Shown in pieces: positions 7,022 through 58,912 of a DNA stretch of 64,000 bases. The stretch is from Pseudomonadota bacterium (GTDB lineage Bacteria > Myxococcota_A > Polyangia > Fen-1088). The translations under genes and the position numbers were made by a program. Positions within the stretch are counted from its first letter, which is position 1. Each line of letters starts with the position of its first letter. The DNA lies in NCBI GenBank assembly GCA_017881245.1, contig JADGRC010000073.1, positions 1-64,000 of the forward strand, written 5' to 3'. Under the pieces are notes generated by a model. That model worked only from the letters and a program-made list of their open reading frames with translations, had not been told where the DNA came from and did not search any database.

Positions 7022-8320
7022 TTGACCGTTGACGCCGGCGCGCCCGAAGAGACCGGCGCAGCACATCAGACGCTTGGAGATGCTTCCCACCCGCCCCGTT
7101 TCTGGCGGTCGGCCGTTGTCATCGCGACCGGGATCTTCGTCACGGGGCTTGGCTGGCCCGGGTTGATTGGTCGGCTGCCGTTTGGCCTGTTGTTGAAAAA
7201 CACCCTGAGCCTTCCCCCCGAGAAGGTCGCAGCGTTCTGGGCGGTGGCCACGCTCGCTTGGTACCTGAAGCCCTTGGTGGGACTGGTATGCGACAGCATT
7301 CCGCTCTTCGGCACGCGCCGACGCGGGTATCTGATCGTCGGGGGGATCGCCGCAGTGATTGGTTGGGCGGCGTTCGCTGTCATCCCCCGGGCCTACGTGC
7401 CGTTTCTAATACTCATGACCGGACTCAATGTCGCGCTGGTCGTCATCAGCACGACCGTCGGCGGCATGCTGGTGGAGGAGGGGCAACGCCTGGGCGCGAC
7501 GGGACGCTTGAGCGCCATGCGTACCGGCCTCGAAGGTGTTATGTCGCTGGCGGCCGGGCCGCTCGGCGGGCTCCTGGCGGCGGCGCCGTTCGCGTGGACG
7601 AGTGGCAGCGGCGCGCTGGTCGTCGGCCTCGTCGTTCCGGTCACGTTGAGCCTGCATCGGGAACCGCGACGGGCCGTCAAGGACGTCGCGGTCTGGGCCG
7701 CGGCGGGAAAGCAGCTTCGCAGCATCGTGCGATCGAGGCCGATGTGGATGACGTCCATATTGTTGTTCCTCGTCTACCTGGCCCCGGGCCTTCAGACGCC
7801 GCTCCTTTTCTACCAACAAGATGTCTTGAAGCTGGACGTGCGATACATGGGCATCTTGCAGTTCGCCGGTGGCGCGGGCGTCCTCGGGGGCTCGGCGGTG
7901 TACTTGTGGCTTTGCCGTCGATTGCCACTCAGGCTGACCCTCATTGGCGGCATTCTGGTGAACGCGGCATCGGCGCTGCTTTACCTCGCCTACCGGTCTT
8001 CGACCGCGGCCCTCGTCATCGAAACCACGGTCGGCTTCGTCGGGGTGATGGGCACCCTTCCCCTGTACGATCTCGCGGTTCGCGCAACGCCCCGGGGCAG
8101 TGAGAGCTTCGGCTACGCGCTGATGATGAGCGTCCGCAACATCGCCGTATTTGGCGTTTCCGACGTCGTCGGCTCGCTGCTGTACGGGCGGTTTCACCTG
8201 GGGTTCGACAAGTTGGTCTGGATCAATGCCGGGTCCAGCGCCGCCGTGCTGCTGTTCGTGCCATTTCTGCCGGTTGCCTTGCTCGCATCGCGGGAGGGCA
8301 AGGTCCAGCCAGAAACCTAA
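7022..8320 (+). CDS. BT1/FBT-type major facilitator transporter
   Basis: A 432-residue inner-membrane protein with about 12 hydrophobic helices. The segment LAWYLKPLVGLVCDSIPLFGTRRRGY is diagnostic for the folate-biopterin transporter branch of the MFS, which has a KPLyGl..DsiPlfG signature. Known members carry folates, biopterin or S-adenosylmethionine; the bacterial substrates are mostly unknown. The start is a TTG 20 bases after the expansin stop with no clear ribosome binding site, so the N-terminus is uncertain. The next gene begins after 135 bases with its own promoter. Confidence 0.8.
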   Translation: MTVDAGAPEETGAAHQTLGDASHPPRFWRSAVVIATGIFVTGLGWPGLIGRLPFGLLLKNTLSLPPEKVAAFWAVATLAWYLKPLVGLVCDSIPLFGTRRRGYLIVGGIAAVIGWAAFAVIPRAYVPFLILMTGLNVALVVISTTVGGMLVEEGQRLGATGRLSAMRTGLEGVMSLAAGPLGGLLAAAPFAWTSGSGALVVGLVVPVTLSLHREPRRAVKDVAVWAAAGKQLRSIVRSRPMWMTSILLFLVYLAPGLQTPLLFYQQDVLKLDVRYMGILQFAGGAGVLGGSAVYLWLCRRLPLRLTLIGGILVNAASALLYLAYRSSTAALVIETTVGFVGVMGTLPLYDLAVRATPRGSESFGYALMMSVRNIAVFGVSDVVGSLLYGRFHLGFDKLVWINAGSSAAVLLFVPFLPVALLASREGKVQPET

Positions 8321-8760: not shown

Positions 8761-9249
8761 ATGCCCGTACGCAAGTCGCCCACTCAAAACGATTCCGACC
8801 TCGCCGACGCGGCGTTCGTGTGCGATCTGGTCAAGGTGCGGGACCTTCTGGCCGCCGGCGCCGATCCGGACGTGCGGGACGACGACGGGCGTACCCCCCT
8901 GTTCTCGGCGGTGCTTGGCGGAAGCATCGGACTTGTCGGCCTGCTGCTAGAAGCAAAGGCCGACATCAACGCCCGTGACGGTCAGGGTTTCTCGGCGCTG
9001 CACTTCGCCGCGCAAGAGGACCTGCCCGAGATGGCACGCTTGCTGATATCCAAGGGCGCCGATGTGAACGCCGTCGACGAGGACGGCGCGTCGGTCCTGT
9101 GGCGCGCGATCTTCTCGTGGCGAAATCGTCCCGACATGATCCAGATCTTGATGGCGGCCGGCGCCAAGCCGGATGTGGCCAACAAGGCGGGCGAAAGCGC
9201 CCGCGATCTGGCGACCCGCCTGGGCATCGGCGCCTTCACGGCGAACTAA
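8761..9249 (+). CDS. Ankyrin-repeat protein
   Basis: A 162-residue soluble protein with about four ankyrin repeats. The clearest are AAGADPDVRDDDGRTPLFSAVLGGSIGLVGLLLEA and AKADINARDGQGFSALHFAAQEDLPEMARLLISKGADVNAVDEDG, in the canonical DxxGxTPLH..A spacing. The last repeat (AGAKPDVANKAGESARDLA) caps the domain. Ankyrin domains mediate protein binding; no catalytic part is present and no signal peptide is seen. The ATG at 8761 is placed by the start of coding bias. The partner is unknown. A copy of the hairpin repeat begins right at the stop codon. Confidence 0.88.
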   Translation: MPVRKSPTQNDSDLADAAFVCDLVKVRDLLAAGADPDVRDDDGRTPLFSAVLGGSIGLVGLLLEAKADINARDGQGFSALHFAAQEDLPEMARLLISKGADVNAVDEDGASVLWRAIFSWRNRPDMIQILMAAGAKPDVANKAGESARDLATRLGIGAFTAN

Positions 9250-9422
9250 GAGCGGCTTCGCCGCCGCAAGGGGCCTGGGAAGGCCCCCTGCGAGACCCCC
9301 TCGGAGTTGCTTGACGGCGAAGCCGGTCCAGCAAGCTGGACCTCCCCGTCCTTGGATCGGCCACTCTCTCGTCGGAGGTGAAACTTTGCCTCATTCGTCA
9401 ACATTCGATCGAGTAACGCATC
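9250..9422 (+). repeat. Interspersed hairpin element, copy A
   Basis: An intergenic element of about 173 nt between two converging genes, related to the copies at 50139, 54076 and 58710 (inverted). It has three hairpins: GCGGC-TTC-GCCGC (9252-9264), GGGGCCT-GGGA-AGGCCCC, and GGTCCAGC-AA-GCTGGACC (9325-9342). A tail follows with CTTGGA and TTTGCCTCATTCG, shared with the other copies. The rest of the gap to 9511 holds nothing recognisable. Confidence 0.6.
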
Positions 9423-9511
9423 CGGCGCGGCAATCACGCGCACTGTTCTGCTGCGGCGACAATCGAGCTGCGTGATCGCGGCGCTAGCCAGAACCCTGGG
9501 CCGCGACGGCG

Positions 9512-10210
9512 CTATTTGGCGGGCGCCTGCTGTTGTTGCTGCTGCTGCTGAAGTTTTTCATTGGCCGCGATCTGGACCTCGACCCGGCGGTTCTGTTTGC
9601 GCCCGTCCGCCGTGCTGTTGTCGGCAACCGGACGATCGTCCGCGTATCCACGGCCGACCATGCGTTGAGCGGCAACGCCATCCGTTCCCAGATTGGCGAT
9701 GACGGCCTCGGCGCGCTGGACCGACAGCTTCTGATTGGTCGCCTTCTTTCCCGTATTGTCGGTGTGGCCTTCAATCACCAGATCCGTGTCCGGATACTTC
9801 TTCAAAACCTGGGCAAACTGCGCGAGGTCGGTCTTCGACTGGGGTTTCAGCTCGGCCTTGTTCTTGTCGAATAGGATCGCGGAATTGAATCTGACGACCA
9901 GCTTGTCGCCCTGTCGATCGATGTTCGCTCCCTTGACCTTCTTCAGATCGGCTTCTTGCTTGTCCATGTAACGACCAATCAGCGCCCCCGACCCTGCCCC
10001 CACACCCGCGCCAATCGCACCACCAATCAATGCCCCCTTGCCACCCCCAGCCAGGGCTCCCAATCCCGCGCCCAGCAACGCGCCGCCGCCCCCTCCTATC
10101 GCGGCACCCTTCCCTTGGTTCGTCGCGCAGGCCGCTCCCGCCAGGAAGGCCGCGCACAGAACGGCTGCGGCCGCTCGATTTCCGATTCGGTTCACACTGC
10201 CATCGGTCAT
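9512..10210 (-). CDS. OmpA-family lipoprotein with glycine-zipper domain
   Basis: A 232-residue envelope protein. A signal peptide with lipobox at Cys28 (AAFLAGAAC) is followed by a glycine-zipper segment (about 32-80, GAAIGGGGGALLGAGLGALAGGG) of the kind that inserts in or lies on membranes. The C-terminal half is an OmpA-like peptidoglycan-binding domain with FDKNKAELKPQSKTDLAQFA, the core motif IEGHTDNTGKKATNQKLSVQRAEAV and GRGYADDRPVADN. It should tie the outer membrane to the cell wall. The tail is a run of eight glutamines followed by APAK. Closest in layout to the YiaD type. Transcribed away from the CNB-DUF1003 gene. Confidence 0.9.
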   Translation of the reverse strand: MTDGSVNRIGNRAAAAVLCAAFLAGAACATNQGKGAAIGGGGGALLGAGLGALAGGGKGALIGGAIGAGVGAGSGALIGRYMDKQEADLKKVKGANIDRQGDKLVVRFNSAILFDKNKAELKPQSKTDLAQFAQVLKKYPDTDLVIEGHTDNTGKKATNQKLSVQRAEAVIANLGTDGVAAQRMVGRGYADDRPVADNSTADGRKQNRRVEVQIAANEKLQQQQQQQQAPAK

Positions 10211-50042: not shown

Positions 50043-50138
50043 CGGGTCCCTTAACTACCAGAATATGGCCGCAAGTGCAGAGGAGCTGTATGATGGGGGG
50101 TCTTTGGACGCAACCAAAATGCCCCGCATGCCACCTAA

Positions 50139-50314
50139 CGCGCCTTCGGCGCTCGCGGGAAGGGGCGGACCCCTCCCCGCGGACCCCTCCCGACGGATCC
50201 CTAAGCCGTCGATCCCGGCGCAGCTAAGCTGCGCCTCCCGGTGCTTGGAAAAGCTCTGCGATCGCCATTCGGAAAAGTTGCCTCATTTGCTCAGATTTCG
50301 ATCGGGTAAGGCAC
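50139..50314 (+). repeat. Interspersed hairpin element, copy B
   Basis: About 176 nt between the divergent gatC and lipoprotein genes. Hairpins: GCGCC-TTC-GGCGC (50140-50152), AGGGG-CGGA-CCCCT, and GCGCAGC-TAA-GCTGCGC (50218-50234). The tail includes GTGCTTGGAAAAGCT, GCGATCGCCATTCGG and GTTGCCTCATT. It differs from copy C mainly by one duplicated GCGGACCCCTCCC. The remaining parts of the gap (50043-50138, 50315-50343) show no feature besides an A/T-rich stretch before gatC. Confidence 0.7.
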
Positions 50315-50343
50315 CTGTTGCTGCCCTATCGCGGAAGGACCCT

Positions 50344-53281: not shown

Positions 53282-54073
53282 ATGAGTACGTCATTCCCGC
53301 TCGACGGAATGCGTGTCCGCTTCGCCGGCGACACGAACGTCGGCATGAAGCGCGCGCACAACGAGGATTCGTTGTACTTGCCAGAGTTCGAGCGGTTGGC
53401 CATCGTCGCCGACGGCATGGGTGGACACGCATCGGGCGAGGTGGCCAGCAAGCTGGCGGTTGAAACGATCGCGGGTTTCTTCAGGACCACCCAAGACGAG
53501 CAGCAGTTGACGTGGCCGTTCAAGATGGACCGTGGGCACAGATACGACGTCAACCGCCTCATCACGGCCATCAAACTGGCGAACCTGAAAATCCACGAAC
53601 AAGCGCAGCGCGACCCCAATTGCCACGGCATGGGCACGACCGTGATCTCGACGTTGTTTCTGGATGATGCCCTGATAGTCGGCCACGTGGGGGACAGCCG
53701 CCTCTACCGCCGGCGCGATGGTGCGTTCGAACAGCTGACCGAGGATCACTCGCTCCTGAACGACTACATCAAGATGAAACATTTAACCCCCGCGGAAATC
53801 GCCGCGTTCCCGCACAAGAACGTGATTGTCCGGGCGCTCGGAATGCGCGACACCGTCCAGGTGGACGTCTACGTGGACACGCCTCGAATGGGCGACGTGT
53901 ACGTACTGTGCTCCGACGGGCTGTCCGGCATGGTGTCCGACGAGCAGATCGCCGACATCGCCGGCACCGACAGAGATCTAGACAGCATCTGTGAGGAACT
54001 GATCAGCCTAGCGAACCGCAACGGGGGCCTCGACAACGTGACCGTCGTGGCTGCCCGCATCGAGAATGCCTGA
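53282..54073 (+). CDS. PP2C-type Ser/Thr protein phosphatase
   Basis: A 263-residue metal-dependent phosphatase. It has the PP2C motifs in order: TNVGMKRAHNEDSLYL, AIVADGMGGHASGEVAS (metal-binding Asp), GMGTTVISTLFLDDALIVGHVGDSRLYR, QLTEDHSL, VLCSDGLSGMVSDEQI and GGLDNVTVVAARI (final Asp). All metal ligands are present. It would reverse phosphorylation by Ser/Thr kinases such as those at 20816 and 34227, though not clustered with either. The ATG at 53282 lacks a strong ribosome binding site. Confidence 0.95.
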   Translation: MSTSFPLDGMRVRFAGDTNVGMKRAHNEDSLYLPEFERLAIVADGMGGHASGEVASKLAVETIAGFFRTTQDEQQLTWPFKMDRGHRYDVNRLITAIKLANLKIHEQAQRDPNCHGMGTTVISTLFLDDALIVGHVGDSRLYRRRDGAFEQLTEDHSLLNDYIKMKHLTPAEIAAFPHKNVIVRALGMRDTVQVDVYVDTPRMGDVYVLCSDGLSGMVSDEQIADIAGTDRDLDSICEELISLANRNGGLDNVTVVAARIENA

Positions 54074-54075
54074 TC

Positions 54076-54243
54076 ACGCGCCTTCGGCGCTTCGCGGGAA
54101 GGGGCGGACCCCTCCCGACGGATCCCTAAGCCGTCGATCCCGGCGCAGCAAAGCTGCGCCTCTGGGTGCTTGAAAAGCTACCGCGATCGCCATCCGGAAA
54201 CTTGCCTCATTCGTTTACATTTTCGTCCGGGTAAGGCATCTGG
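54076..54243 (+). repeat. Interspersed hairpin element, copy C
   Basis: About 168 nt between the convergent PP2C and ABC transporter genes. Hairpins: GCGCC-TTC-GGCGC, AGGGG-CGGA-CCCCT, and GCGCAGC-AAA-GCTGCGC (54143-54159), then the tail GTGCTTGAAAAGCT, GCGATCGCCATCCGG and TTGCCTCATTCG. Nearly the same as copy B. The rest of the gap, 54244-54398, shows nothing recognisable. Confidence 0.7.
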
Positions 54244-54398
54244 AACGCCTGTGTCACGGCTTACCTCGAGAATGCCTCCAAGAAGTGCGACTACCCGTGA
54301 TCACACGGGCACGGAAATCCTAGTAAATCCTCGCGTCGAATCTGGAGGCACACCGAAAGGCCCGCGGTTTTCAGCGCCTCCATTCGGAAGCCCGTACA

Positions 54399-56288
54399 TC
54401 ACGTCGTGATTGCCTTGGCGGAAACCCCAGCCGATGGCGTGGGCAGGCCGCTTCCGGCGGGAGTCGGACGCTCGCCCGTCTGAAGTCGCCAGAGCGCCGC
54501 GTACGGCCCGCCGGCCGCGCGCAGATCGTCGTGGGTCCCCTGCTCGACGATACGTCCGTCCTCGAGCACGTAGATGAAGTCGGCGTTGCGCACGGTGGAT
54601 AGGCGGTGAGCGATAATGATACTGGTTCGACCCACGACCACGCGGTCAAGTGATCGCAAGATGGCGGCCTCGGTTTCGTTGTCGACCGCGCTCGTGGCCT
54701 CGTCGAGCACCAGGATGGGGGGATTCTTCAGGATCGCGCGCGCGAGCGCGATTCGCTGCCGCTGGCCGCCCGACAACTTCTGACCGCGCTCGCCGACCTG
54801 CGTGTCGTAACCGCTTGGCATCGCCGACACAAAGTCGTGCGCCTCCGCGGTGACGGCGGCCGCGACGATCGCCGCGCGCGGAACATCGGGGACGCCATAG
54901 GCGATGTTTTCGGCGACCGTGGCGTCGGCCAGAAAGCTGTCCTGCGCCACGTAGCCGATGGCCCGACGCAGGTCCTCCAGATCCAACTCCCCGAGCGGTC
55001 GTCCGTCCAGCCGGATTGTGCCTCGCCGCGGTTCATGAAACCGCAACAGCAACTTTACGAGCGTGCTCTTTCCGCCGCCTGTGCCGCCCACGAAAGCCAC
55101 GGCGTGACCAGGCGGAATGGTAAGCGTGATGTCGCTCAGTGTGGCGTGCAGCGTGGGCTTCGTTGTGGACTGGGCCCCGCCGTCGTAGGCGAAGTCGACG
55201 TGATCGAACGCAATCTCGCCCACCACCGCCGTCGCCGGCAGGCGCGCGCCCCCATAAGGGATCGCGATCGGCGTCTGCACCAGATCCATCACCCGCTTTA
55301 TCGACGCGGTGGAACGTTGATACAGATCGCTCAGCTCGGCGAGCCGAGTCATGGGCCAAAGCAAACGCTGCGTGAGATACACGAGCACTGAGTAGCTGCC
55401 CACCCCCAGCCTGCCCTGCAGCGCCATGAAGCCCCCGTACAATAGCGTGACGGTGAAGCCGGCCAGGATGGCCATGCGGATGATCGGTGTGATCGCGGCC
55501 GACAAGCGGATCGCCTCGCGATTGGCGCTTCGGTAACCATCCGACGCGTCTTGGATTCGTTCGGCCTCGAAGGCCTCAGCGGTGTAGGCCTTGATCGTGG
55601 CCACGCCGAGCAGGTTGTTGTTCAGCCGGGCATTCAACCCGCCCGATGCTTCCCGGACCCGCGCGTAACGGGGGGCCAGCCGGCGCTGAAACCAAAATGC
55701 CCCGTAGATGATCACCGGCACGGGCAAGAGCGCCAGCAAGGCGATCCGCGGCGCGAGCGCGAAAAACACGGCGCCGACCAGCAGGGAGCCCGTGACGATC
55801 TGAATCAGATCGTTCGCGCCACCGTTCAAGAAACGCTCCATTTGGTTGATGTCGTCGTTCAGGATCGACATCAGGTTTCCGGTGCGCACGTTCTCGAACC
55901 ACGTCATTTCCAGCTTCTGAATGTGCCGGTATGCCTCCATGCGCAGCTCGTGTTGCAGGTTCTGGGCGAGATTCCGCCAGCGCACGTCGTAGAGGTACTG
56001 AAACAACGACTCGCCAACCCAGATCACGACCGTCACCACGGCTAGGCCTATGATCTGCGTACGGGGATCGCTAACGCCGAAGCGCGACAGGAAGGAATCC
56101 TTCCGGTGCACGACGACATCGACGGCAACCCCGATCAGAACCTCGGGCAAGACGTCGAAGAACTTGTTCAGGACCGAGCACAACGACGCCAACCAAACGT
56201 CACGACGGTACTGTCGCGCGTAGGCAAACAAACGGCGAAACGGGTGGAGGGCTGGGTCTGCGTGAACAAGCGGAGCGGCGGGCGGCAT
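54399..56288 (-). CDS. ABC exporter, fused permease-ATPase (MsbA-like)
   Basis: A 629-residue half-transporter. Six membrane helices in the N-terminal 330 residues, with VRTGNLMSILNDDINQMERFLNGGANDLI, an exporter-type coupling region. The ATPase has Walker A VGGTGGGKSTLVKLL, Q-loop YVAQDSFL, signature LSGGQRQRIALARAIL, Walker B ILVLDEATSAVDN and switch His IIAHRLSTVRNAD. It works as a homodimer or with another half, moving lipids, peptides or drugs out of the cell; the substrate cannot be told. It neighbours ugd, so an envelope role is possible. Confidence 0.93.
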   Translation of the reverse strand: MPPAAPLVHADPALHPFRRLFAYARQYRRDVWLASLCSVLNKFFDVLPEVLIGVAVDVVVHRKDSFLSRFGVSDPRTQIIGLAVVTVVIWVGESLFQYLYDVRWRNLAQNLQHELRMEAYRHIQKLEMTWFENVRTGNLMSILNDDINQMERFLNGGANDLIQIVTGSLLVGAVFFALAPRIALLALLPVPVIIYGAFWFQRRLAPRYARVREASGGLNARLNNNLLGVATIKAYTAEAFEAERIQDASDGYRSANREAIRLSAAITPIIRMAILAGFTVTLLYGGFMALQGRLGVGSYSVLVYLTQRLLWPMTRLAELSDLYQRSTASIKRVMDLVQTPIAIPYGGARLPATAVVGEIAFDHVDFAYDGGAQSTTKPTLHATLSDITLTIPPGHAVAFVGGTGGGKSTLVKLLLRFHEPRRGTIRLDGRPLGELDLEDLRRAIGYVAQDSFLADATVAENIAYGVPDVPRAAIVAAAVTAEAHDFVSAMPSGYDTQVGERGQKLSGGQRQRIALARAILKNPPILVLDEATSAVDNETEAAILRSLDRVVVGRTSIIIAHRLSTVRNADFIYVLEDGRIVEQGTHDDLRAAGGPYAALWRLQTGERPTPAGSGLPTPSAGVSAKAITT

Positions 56289-58709: not shown

Positions 58710-58912
58710 TAGTCGGGCGCTAAATAAGGCAACTTCTCCGAAGGCCGATCATAAGGCTTTTCCAAGCATCGGGAGGCGTGGCAAAGCCGCACCCCACGCA
58801 GGAAGACCTGCCTGGGGACCCCGCGCCACGCCGGCGTTGACGGCCTGCGGGGGAGCACATGAGGGGGACACCCGGGGGGACACCCCCTCATGGCGGCGAA
58901 GCCGCTCTGGCG
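58710..58912 (-). repeat. Interspersed hairpin element, copy D (inverted)
   Basis: About 200 nt, in reverse orientation, between the convergent nucleotidyltransferase and transposase genes. Read on the minus strand it begins AGAGCGGCTTCGCCGCC, the same first hairpin as copy A. A strong inverted repeat GAGGGGG...CCCCCTC follows, then an imperfect GTGCGGC-TTT-GCCACGC, and the tail CTCCCGATGCTTGGAAAAGC, TTCGGAGAAGTTGCC. It is the most divergent copy in its middle part. Confidence 0.6.

Follow-up and report, generated by a model that had tools for sequence, protein, structure and literature searches.

Multi-hairpin repeats located at gene 3' ends in an uncultured myxobacterial lineage form a dispersed, modular family

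Interspersed repeats are common in bacteria, and how they choose their sites and whether they are relevant to the transcripts that carry them is an old open question. The BOX repeats of Streptococcus pneumoniae (boxA-boxB(n)-boxC) are modular, with an internal module that is tandemly duplicated, and produce a stable structure in the transcript. In Escherichia coli, strong hairpins and REPs located within 15 nt of a stop codon are reported to stall ribosomes and slow termination (PMC12306157), and flanking open reading frames are reported to often take their TAG stop codon from a GTAG REP (PMC3733652), so that behavior at gene ends has precedents among bacterial repeats. An effect on the stability of the upstream mRNA is attributed to ERIC elements (PMC2229807).

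The window analyzed here is a 64,000-nt stretch of DNA from a Myxococcota MAG (G000; 6.17 Mb in 534 contigs, 92.8% complete, 5.5% contamination); all genomes compared with it are MAGs as well, some with N gaps inside the hairpins. The sequence set consisted of blastn matches with their flanks, the unselected contigs C1-C20 and several long contigs, and a profile built from 44 copies was run over 710 kb of G000 sequence. Genes were called with a purpose-written codon-bias caller, which yielded 572 genes on the sample, with gene starts and small genes being rough.

The original prediction was that the window holds four copies of a structured element, each an ordered string of hairpins, three of them between converging genes and one between diverging genes, with no coding sequence to explain them. 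All four copies are present, at coordinates good to a few nucleotides; the same order of blocks is found in each, the gene orientations match the codon-bias calls, and neither a known insertion sequence (IS) nor a decayed gene accounts for them. Copy A (9250..9428, plus strand, subfamily A) directly follows an ankyrin-repeat gene that ends in TAA (9247-9249) and is convergent with an OmpA-family gene that ends at 9512. On the plus strand, it consists of hairpin 1 (GCGGC-TTC-GCCGC, 9252..9264), hairpin 2 (CGCAAGGGGCCT/AGGCCCCCTGCG, 9265..9292), hairpin 3 (GGTCCAGC/GCTGGACC, 9325..9342), which is followed by a conserved CTCC..CCTTGGA tail, and a weak terminal hairpin (TTGCCTCA...AACGCA, 9386..9420) that constitutes the right end of the element. 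Copy B (50138..50322, plus strand, subfamily C) lies between the diverging genes and is preceded by a CTAA that is not the stop of any gene. Copy C (54076..54247, plus strand, also subfamily C) begins 4 nt beyond a PP2C phosphatase gene with the stop TGA (54071-54073) and is convergent with an ABC transporter gene; its hairpin 1 is GCGCC-TTC-GGCGC (54078..54090, plus strand) and its hairpin 3 is GGCGCAGC-AAA-GCTGCGCC (54142..54160, plus strand), and the 3' arm of hairpin 2 is partially deleted. Copy D (58718..58908, minus strand, subfamily D), between convergent genes, is a diverged subtype in which hairpin 3 holds a nested GGGGTCCCC..GTGGGGT hairpin.

The full unit of the family is ~180 nt long. 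Hairpin 1 is GCGGC-TTC-GCCGC or GCGCC-TTC-GGCGC, hairpin 2 is a GC-rich stem of 10-12 bp, and a conserved linker (e.g. GAGACCCCCACGGAGTTGCTCGACGGCGAGGCC) connects the latter to hairpin 3, which is GGTCCAGC/GCTGGACC or a variant thereof followed by CTCCC.GT.CTTGGA; beyond the CTTGGA tail, ~35 nt lead to a weak terminal pairing (TTGCCTCA...TAAGGCA, a TGCC..GGCA hairpin) that ends in TCTAG. The unit is modular: the module of hairpins 1-2 is present one to three times per unit (two or three times in C330, C505, C377, C532, C297 and C483), the duplicated module being terminal rather than central, a second hairpin is optionally nested within hairpin 3 (C13, C69, C20, C361 and others), and the right half is missing from many copies. 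In an alignment of 25 copies, 93.5% of the cells pair in the predicted stems compared to 36-50% in controls in which the pairing partner was slid, and 14 of the 30 stem pairs show two-sided changes, although these counts overstate the number of independent changes because the covariation partly reflects a handful of subfamily-level events. The folding z-scores of two single copies are -2.8 and -2.6. Just 3' of hairpin 3, an ACCTCC/GCCTCC motif is conserved (e.g. window 9339-9345). It is similar to the anti-Shine-Dalgarno end of 16S rRNA, which might allow pairing with ribosome-binding sites or might be coincidental. Inspected by eye, the element consensus (e.g. window 9250-9428) remains open over much of its length in two of its three forward frames, so that insertion in the other frames would lengthen a protein instead of terminating it.

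The family is dispersed across the genome. Searches of G000 with single copies using blastn gave 57 matches for copy A, 36 for copy C (down to E=1e-62 on other contigs) and 13 for copy D, and 78 distinct elements were located after merging the matches. The unselected sample of ~211 kb (C1-C20) contains 3 copies, which translates into about 90 per 6.17 Mb, a guess on the low side given that the assembly fragments at repeats; from the blastn searches, the locally built profile and this sample, the family size is estimated at about 90-120 elements per genome. Thus, the copies are not confined to the window, and the expectation of a genome-wide family was correct, with the predicted "hundreds per genome" being somewhat high. 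Given these matches, the folding z-scores and the covariation, the copies in the window are not a product of chance. Members of a subfamily are up to 97-99% identical between unlinked loci. An exact-pattern scan of GTDB species genomes produced matches on two contigs of 'Myxococcales bacterium isolate fen_1088'. Two loci (L049 and L114, on contigs C343 and C18, respectively) contain 92%-identical ends of dnaB, each followed by a D-type element; by their sequence, these are probably strain variants or redundancy of the MAG, and the possibility of a larger mobile unit was rejected given that both are simply the end of dnaB.

The strongest feature of the family, overlooked in the original prediction, is that the element starts 1 nt after the upstream stop codon. 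When the copies were mapped to gene ends, 51 of the 67 left ends had a same-strand gene end upstream by the codon-bias calls; in 40 of these 51, the left end is located between -1 and +2 nt from the stop codon, and in 33 it is exactly 1 nt after it. The stops at anchored copies are mainly TAG and TAA, although TGA is the most common stop genome-wide (57%). CTAG or CTAA also precedes several copies that are away from any gene end, and accordingly, this word may be part of the unit or of its target. A CTAG/CTAR target word combined with exclusion from genes was considered as the sole cause of the placement and rejected: non-coding CTAR sites number 68 at stops and 284 elsewhere, an excess of about four to one, so that the word predicts ~19% of the copies at stops, far below the observed fraction. 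Gradual loss of off-stop copies was rejected as well: 27 of the 39 copies with at least 95% left-part identity to another copy are located at stops compared to 6 of the 13 most diverged ones (p=0.19), that is, young copies are no less frequent at stops than old ones, and the anchor is already present in young copies.

Comparison with the sister genome G001, which belongs to the same genus, shares ~77% identical DNA and aligns across the window, reveals empty sites. Copies B, C and D are absent from the orthologous places in G001, and site A falls in an NN gap; at five examined loci, G001 lacks the element, cleanly so at two stop codons. The G001 PP2C gene at the copy C locus ends in TAG, with another gene directly after it. 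The ABC transporter gene that adjoins copy C (window 54399-56288) is located in G001 on another contig, C690, away from the PP2C gene, and thus the copy C junction has also been rearranged. The genes for SecF and for the beta subunit of 2-oxoacid:ferredoxin oxidoreductase (OFOR-beta), which are followed by an element on C20 and C462, respectively, have element-free orthologs in G001 and in more distant relatives that retain the same C-terminus, with an ordinary stop; hence, the element sits exactly at the native stop and the protein is not truncated. Provision of the stop by truncation of the gene was rejected for SecF, OFOR-beta and PP2C, the orthologs of which end at the same residue. The copies of G001 itself follow other stops and mostly belong to another subfamily; in the case of pcnB, an element is located at the stop in both G000 and G001, the subfamilies being different. 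Four G001 loci (L151, L152, L158 and L165) have NN scaffold gaps inside or beside hairpin elements, which implies that short-read assemblies probably lose many copies.

Divergent relatives of the family exist in other genera. A covariance model of the repeat, a search that had been suggested together with the original prediction, was run against 116 relatives, with the best 40 or fewer candidates scored per genome. Under this scoring, the model yielded 12 matches in G001, weaker matches in two other genera of the same taxonomic family, g2 (G002, G008 and G011) and g5 (G005), and two borderline genomes elsewhere in the class. The best matches in other genera differ in sequence but still contain hairpins 2 and 3 and the CTCC tail. 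In G005, 8 of the 13 places found with blastn coincide with or closely follow a coding stop, for the most part TGA, and the best copies in G008 and G011 are similarly located; a Fic-like gene common to G005 and G008 carries an element after its stop in both genomes. Thus, the copies in other genera keep the layout and the place at the gene end, that is, order and position outlive sequence. One G005 copy begins 6 nt after the 3' end of tRNA-Cys, where there is no stop codon. At three G005 loci (L251, L257 and L259), related or similar multi-hairpin repeats adjoin the 3' ends of tRNA genes, hinting that the common denominator is transcript 3' ends rather than stop codons.

The interpretation that we favor, with a probability of roughly 0.6, is that the four copies belong to a non-autonomous, modular, REP/BOX-like repeat family that spreads into gene 3' ends and forms an mRNA 3'-end structure. 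Under this scenario, the element, moved in trans by some enzyme, would insert at a stop codon or directly behind it, in most cases within a short convergent gap, leaving the upstream protein unchanged, and would become the start of the 3' untranslated region, with three to four predicted stable hairpins from ~1 nt after the stop. The copies would then diversify by module, through tandem duplication of hairpins 1-2, acquisition of the nested hairpin in hairpin 3 and loss of the right half, with compensatory changes maintaining the stems as the copies diverge. The transcribed element might act as an mRNA 3'-end barrier or as a processing or termination signal and, by analogy with the E. coli hairpins (PMC12306157), may slow termination on the upstream gene.

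The main rival of this interpretation is a selected 3'-end or terminator element: the copies would be bidirectional terminators or 3'-processing signals maintained by selection between convergent genes and homogenized by gene conversion, their mobility being incidental. This reading, which we regard as possible if unlikely, draws on the gene context, which counts for the favored interpretation as well: 35 of the 50 elements with both neighbors known lie between convergent genes, compared to 18% of gene pairs, and often occupy the whole gap. It also gains from the apparent position of the hairpin chain at the transcript 3' end, from the copy downstream of tRNA-Cys, and from the genes that carry an element in two genomes (pcnB, with different subfamilies, and the Fic-like gene). 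However, the element is not a general terminator, as only about 12 of the 83 convergent pairs in the sample carry one, the orthologous 3' ends of the sister manage without one, and 97-99% identity between unlinked loci requires copying. Furthermore, no U-tract follows any element hairpin in the intrinsic terminator scan, which detected no terminator-like site in copies B, C and D and gave a total number of matches at chance level; the suggestion of bidirectional terminators thus agrees with the convergent placement, but the U-tract that characterizes intrinsic terminators is missing.

As for the way in which the placement arises under the favored interpretation, the insertion mechanism itself, as opposed to a target word in the DNA, might steer the element to stop codons or transcript 3' ends. 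We consider such targeting decidedly doubtful; strong selection for a 3'-end function could likewise concentrate copies at stops. Taken together, the spacing of 1 nt in the youngest copies, the abutment to stops across genera, be these TAG/TAA or TGA, the unaltered proteins and the lack of a target duplication would suggest integration by a route linked to RNA or to the ribosome.

A classical MITE, moved by a DDE transposase (e.g. of the IS630 type, with TA or CTAG targets) the parent IS of which is missing from the MAG, is very unlikely. The element is often bounded by CTAG/CTAA at its left end and by CTAG at its right end, which would fit such an origin, as RUP, ERIC and similar MITEs target TA (PMC2229807), and IS copies get lost from MAGs. 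The ends, however, carry no clear inverted repeats: in the inspected alignment, the left GAGCGGC shows only scattered identity to the reverse complement of the right end, GATGCCTT. There is no sign of target duplication either, the two 4-mers of a copy matching no better than shuffled pairs (46 letters against a shuffled mean of 46.1; permutation p=0.57), and the element in G005 abuts TGA, without CTAG. No parent element was seen, and no related autonomous IS was detected near the copies in this fragmented MAG, in which the Y1_Tnp family was searched; a candidate parent between two inverted right ends on C218 was rejected because the region contains ordinary genes.

Assignment to REPs in the strict sense fares no better. 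The elements are high-copy, extragenic and close to gene 3' ends (~78 elements, 40 of 51 at a stop), but the REP head, GTAG/GGAG or CGTC next to a palindrome, was not found at the element boundaries: in G000, the left boundary is CTAG, CTAA or GTAA followed by A or C, and in G005 it is mostly TGA. The REP-associated transposase proposed to reside nearby did not materialize: the Y1_Tnp (IS200/RAYT) search found nothing in G001, G002, G005 and G008, with some doubt left by the incompleteness of these MAGs, and in G000 only a decayed fragment of 34 positions. The only Y1 trace found in G000, at locus L096 (C482, about 7279-7380), is what is left of a decayed IS200-type transposase with a SDHVHMLISIPPKYAVAQ motif. 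What stands of the "mobile REP/MITE-like" designation is the kind of element, in view of the dispersal, the subfamilies of up to 97-99% identity and the empty sister sites. Integron attC sites, which have RYYYAAC/GTTRRRY core boxes and form cassette arrays, were rejected: the right end, GGTAAGGCATCTAG, shows no GTTRRRY, the copies are solitary, and in the sister genome the genes occupy their places in the absence of any copy. A multicopy gene for a trans-acting structured RNA is exceedingly improbable, given the variable number of modules, the frequent truncation on the right, the lack of a promoter-like region common to the copies, the ties to stop codons that belong to unrelated genes and the outcome of the Rfam 15 search of the window, 0 matches at the gathering score, although the hairpins covary, in which respect alone the suggestion of a structured RNA holds, and the single-stranded linkers are conserved.

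With these observations, a deep, uncultured lineage of myxobacteria gains a class of repeats, one that may otherwise cause assembly gaps. The combination of presence and absence between sister species, strong stem covariation, placement at stops with near single-nucleotide precision and relatives in several genera should make insertion targeting separable from 3'-end selection. No description of the family was found in the open-access literature searched, including searches specific to myxobacteria.

Among the known systems, the family resembles REP/BIME (PMC2817692, PMC3733652) in that both consist of palindromes scattered over intergenic regions close to gene 3' ends, mostly where the neighboring genes are convergent or co-directional, with stems kept by compensatory change. 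It differs in its length of ~180 nt with three to four different hairpins, as opposed to a single palindrome of 20-40 nt, in the CTAR/TGA plus A or C that takes the place of the GTAG/CGTC head, and in that no intact RAYT was found in the element-bearing genomes searched (G000, G001, G002, G005 and G008). With ERIC/RU-1, NEMIS/Correia and RUP, as presented in PMC2229807, the family shares a length of 100-200 nt, base-paired transcripts and insertion downstream of genes; unlike the present elements, in which none of these features was found, those repeats are described there as having terminal inverted repeats, mostly TA ends and some target duplications. The CIR repeats of Caulobacter (PMC2229807) also comprise at least two independent hairpin arms and a linker, without end-to-end pairing, but belong to a different phylum and contain a GANTC motif, and the passages on them mention no anchoring to stop codons. 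The likeness to BOX lies in the modular organization and the tandemly duplicated module; no sequence relation was found, it is hairpins 1-2 that are duplicated here, with at most three occurrences, and the unit has a fixed position at stop codons. The composite hairpin chain, the near-fixed 1-nt spacing and the apparent lack of a RAYT match neither the ribosome-stalling hairpins nor the stop-supplying REPs. Thus, repeats at gene ends are known in other bacteria, whereas this family and its strict placement appear to be new.
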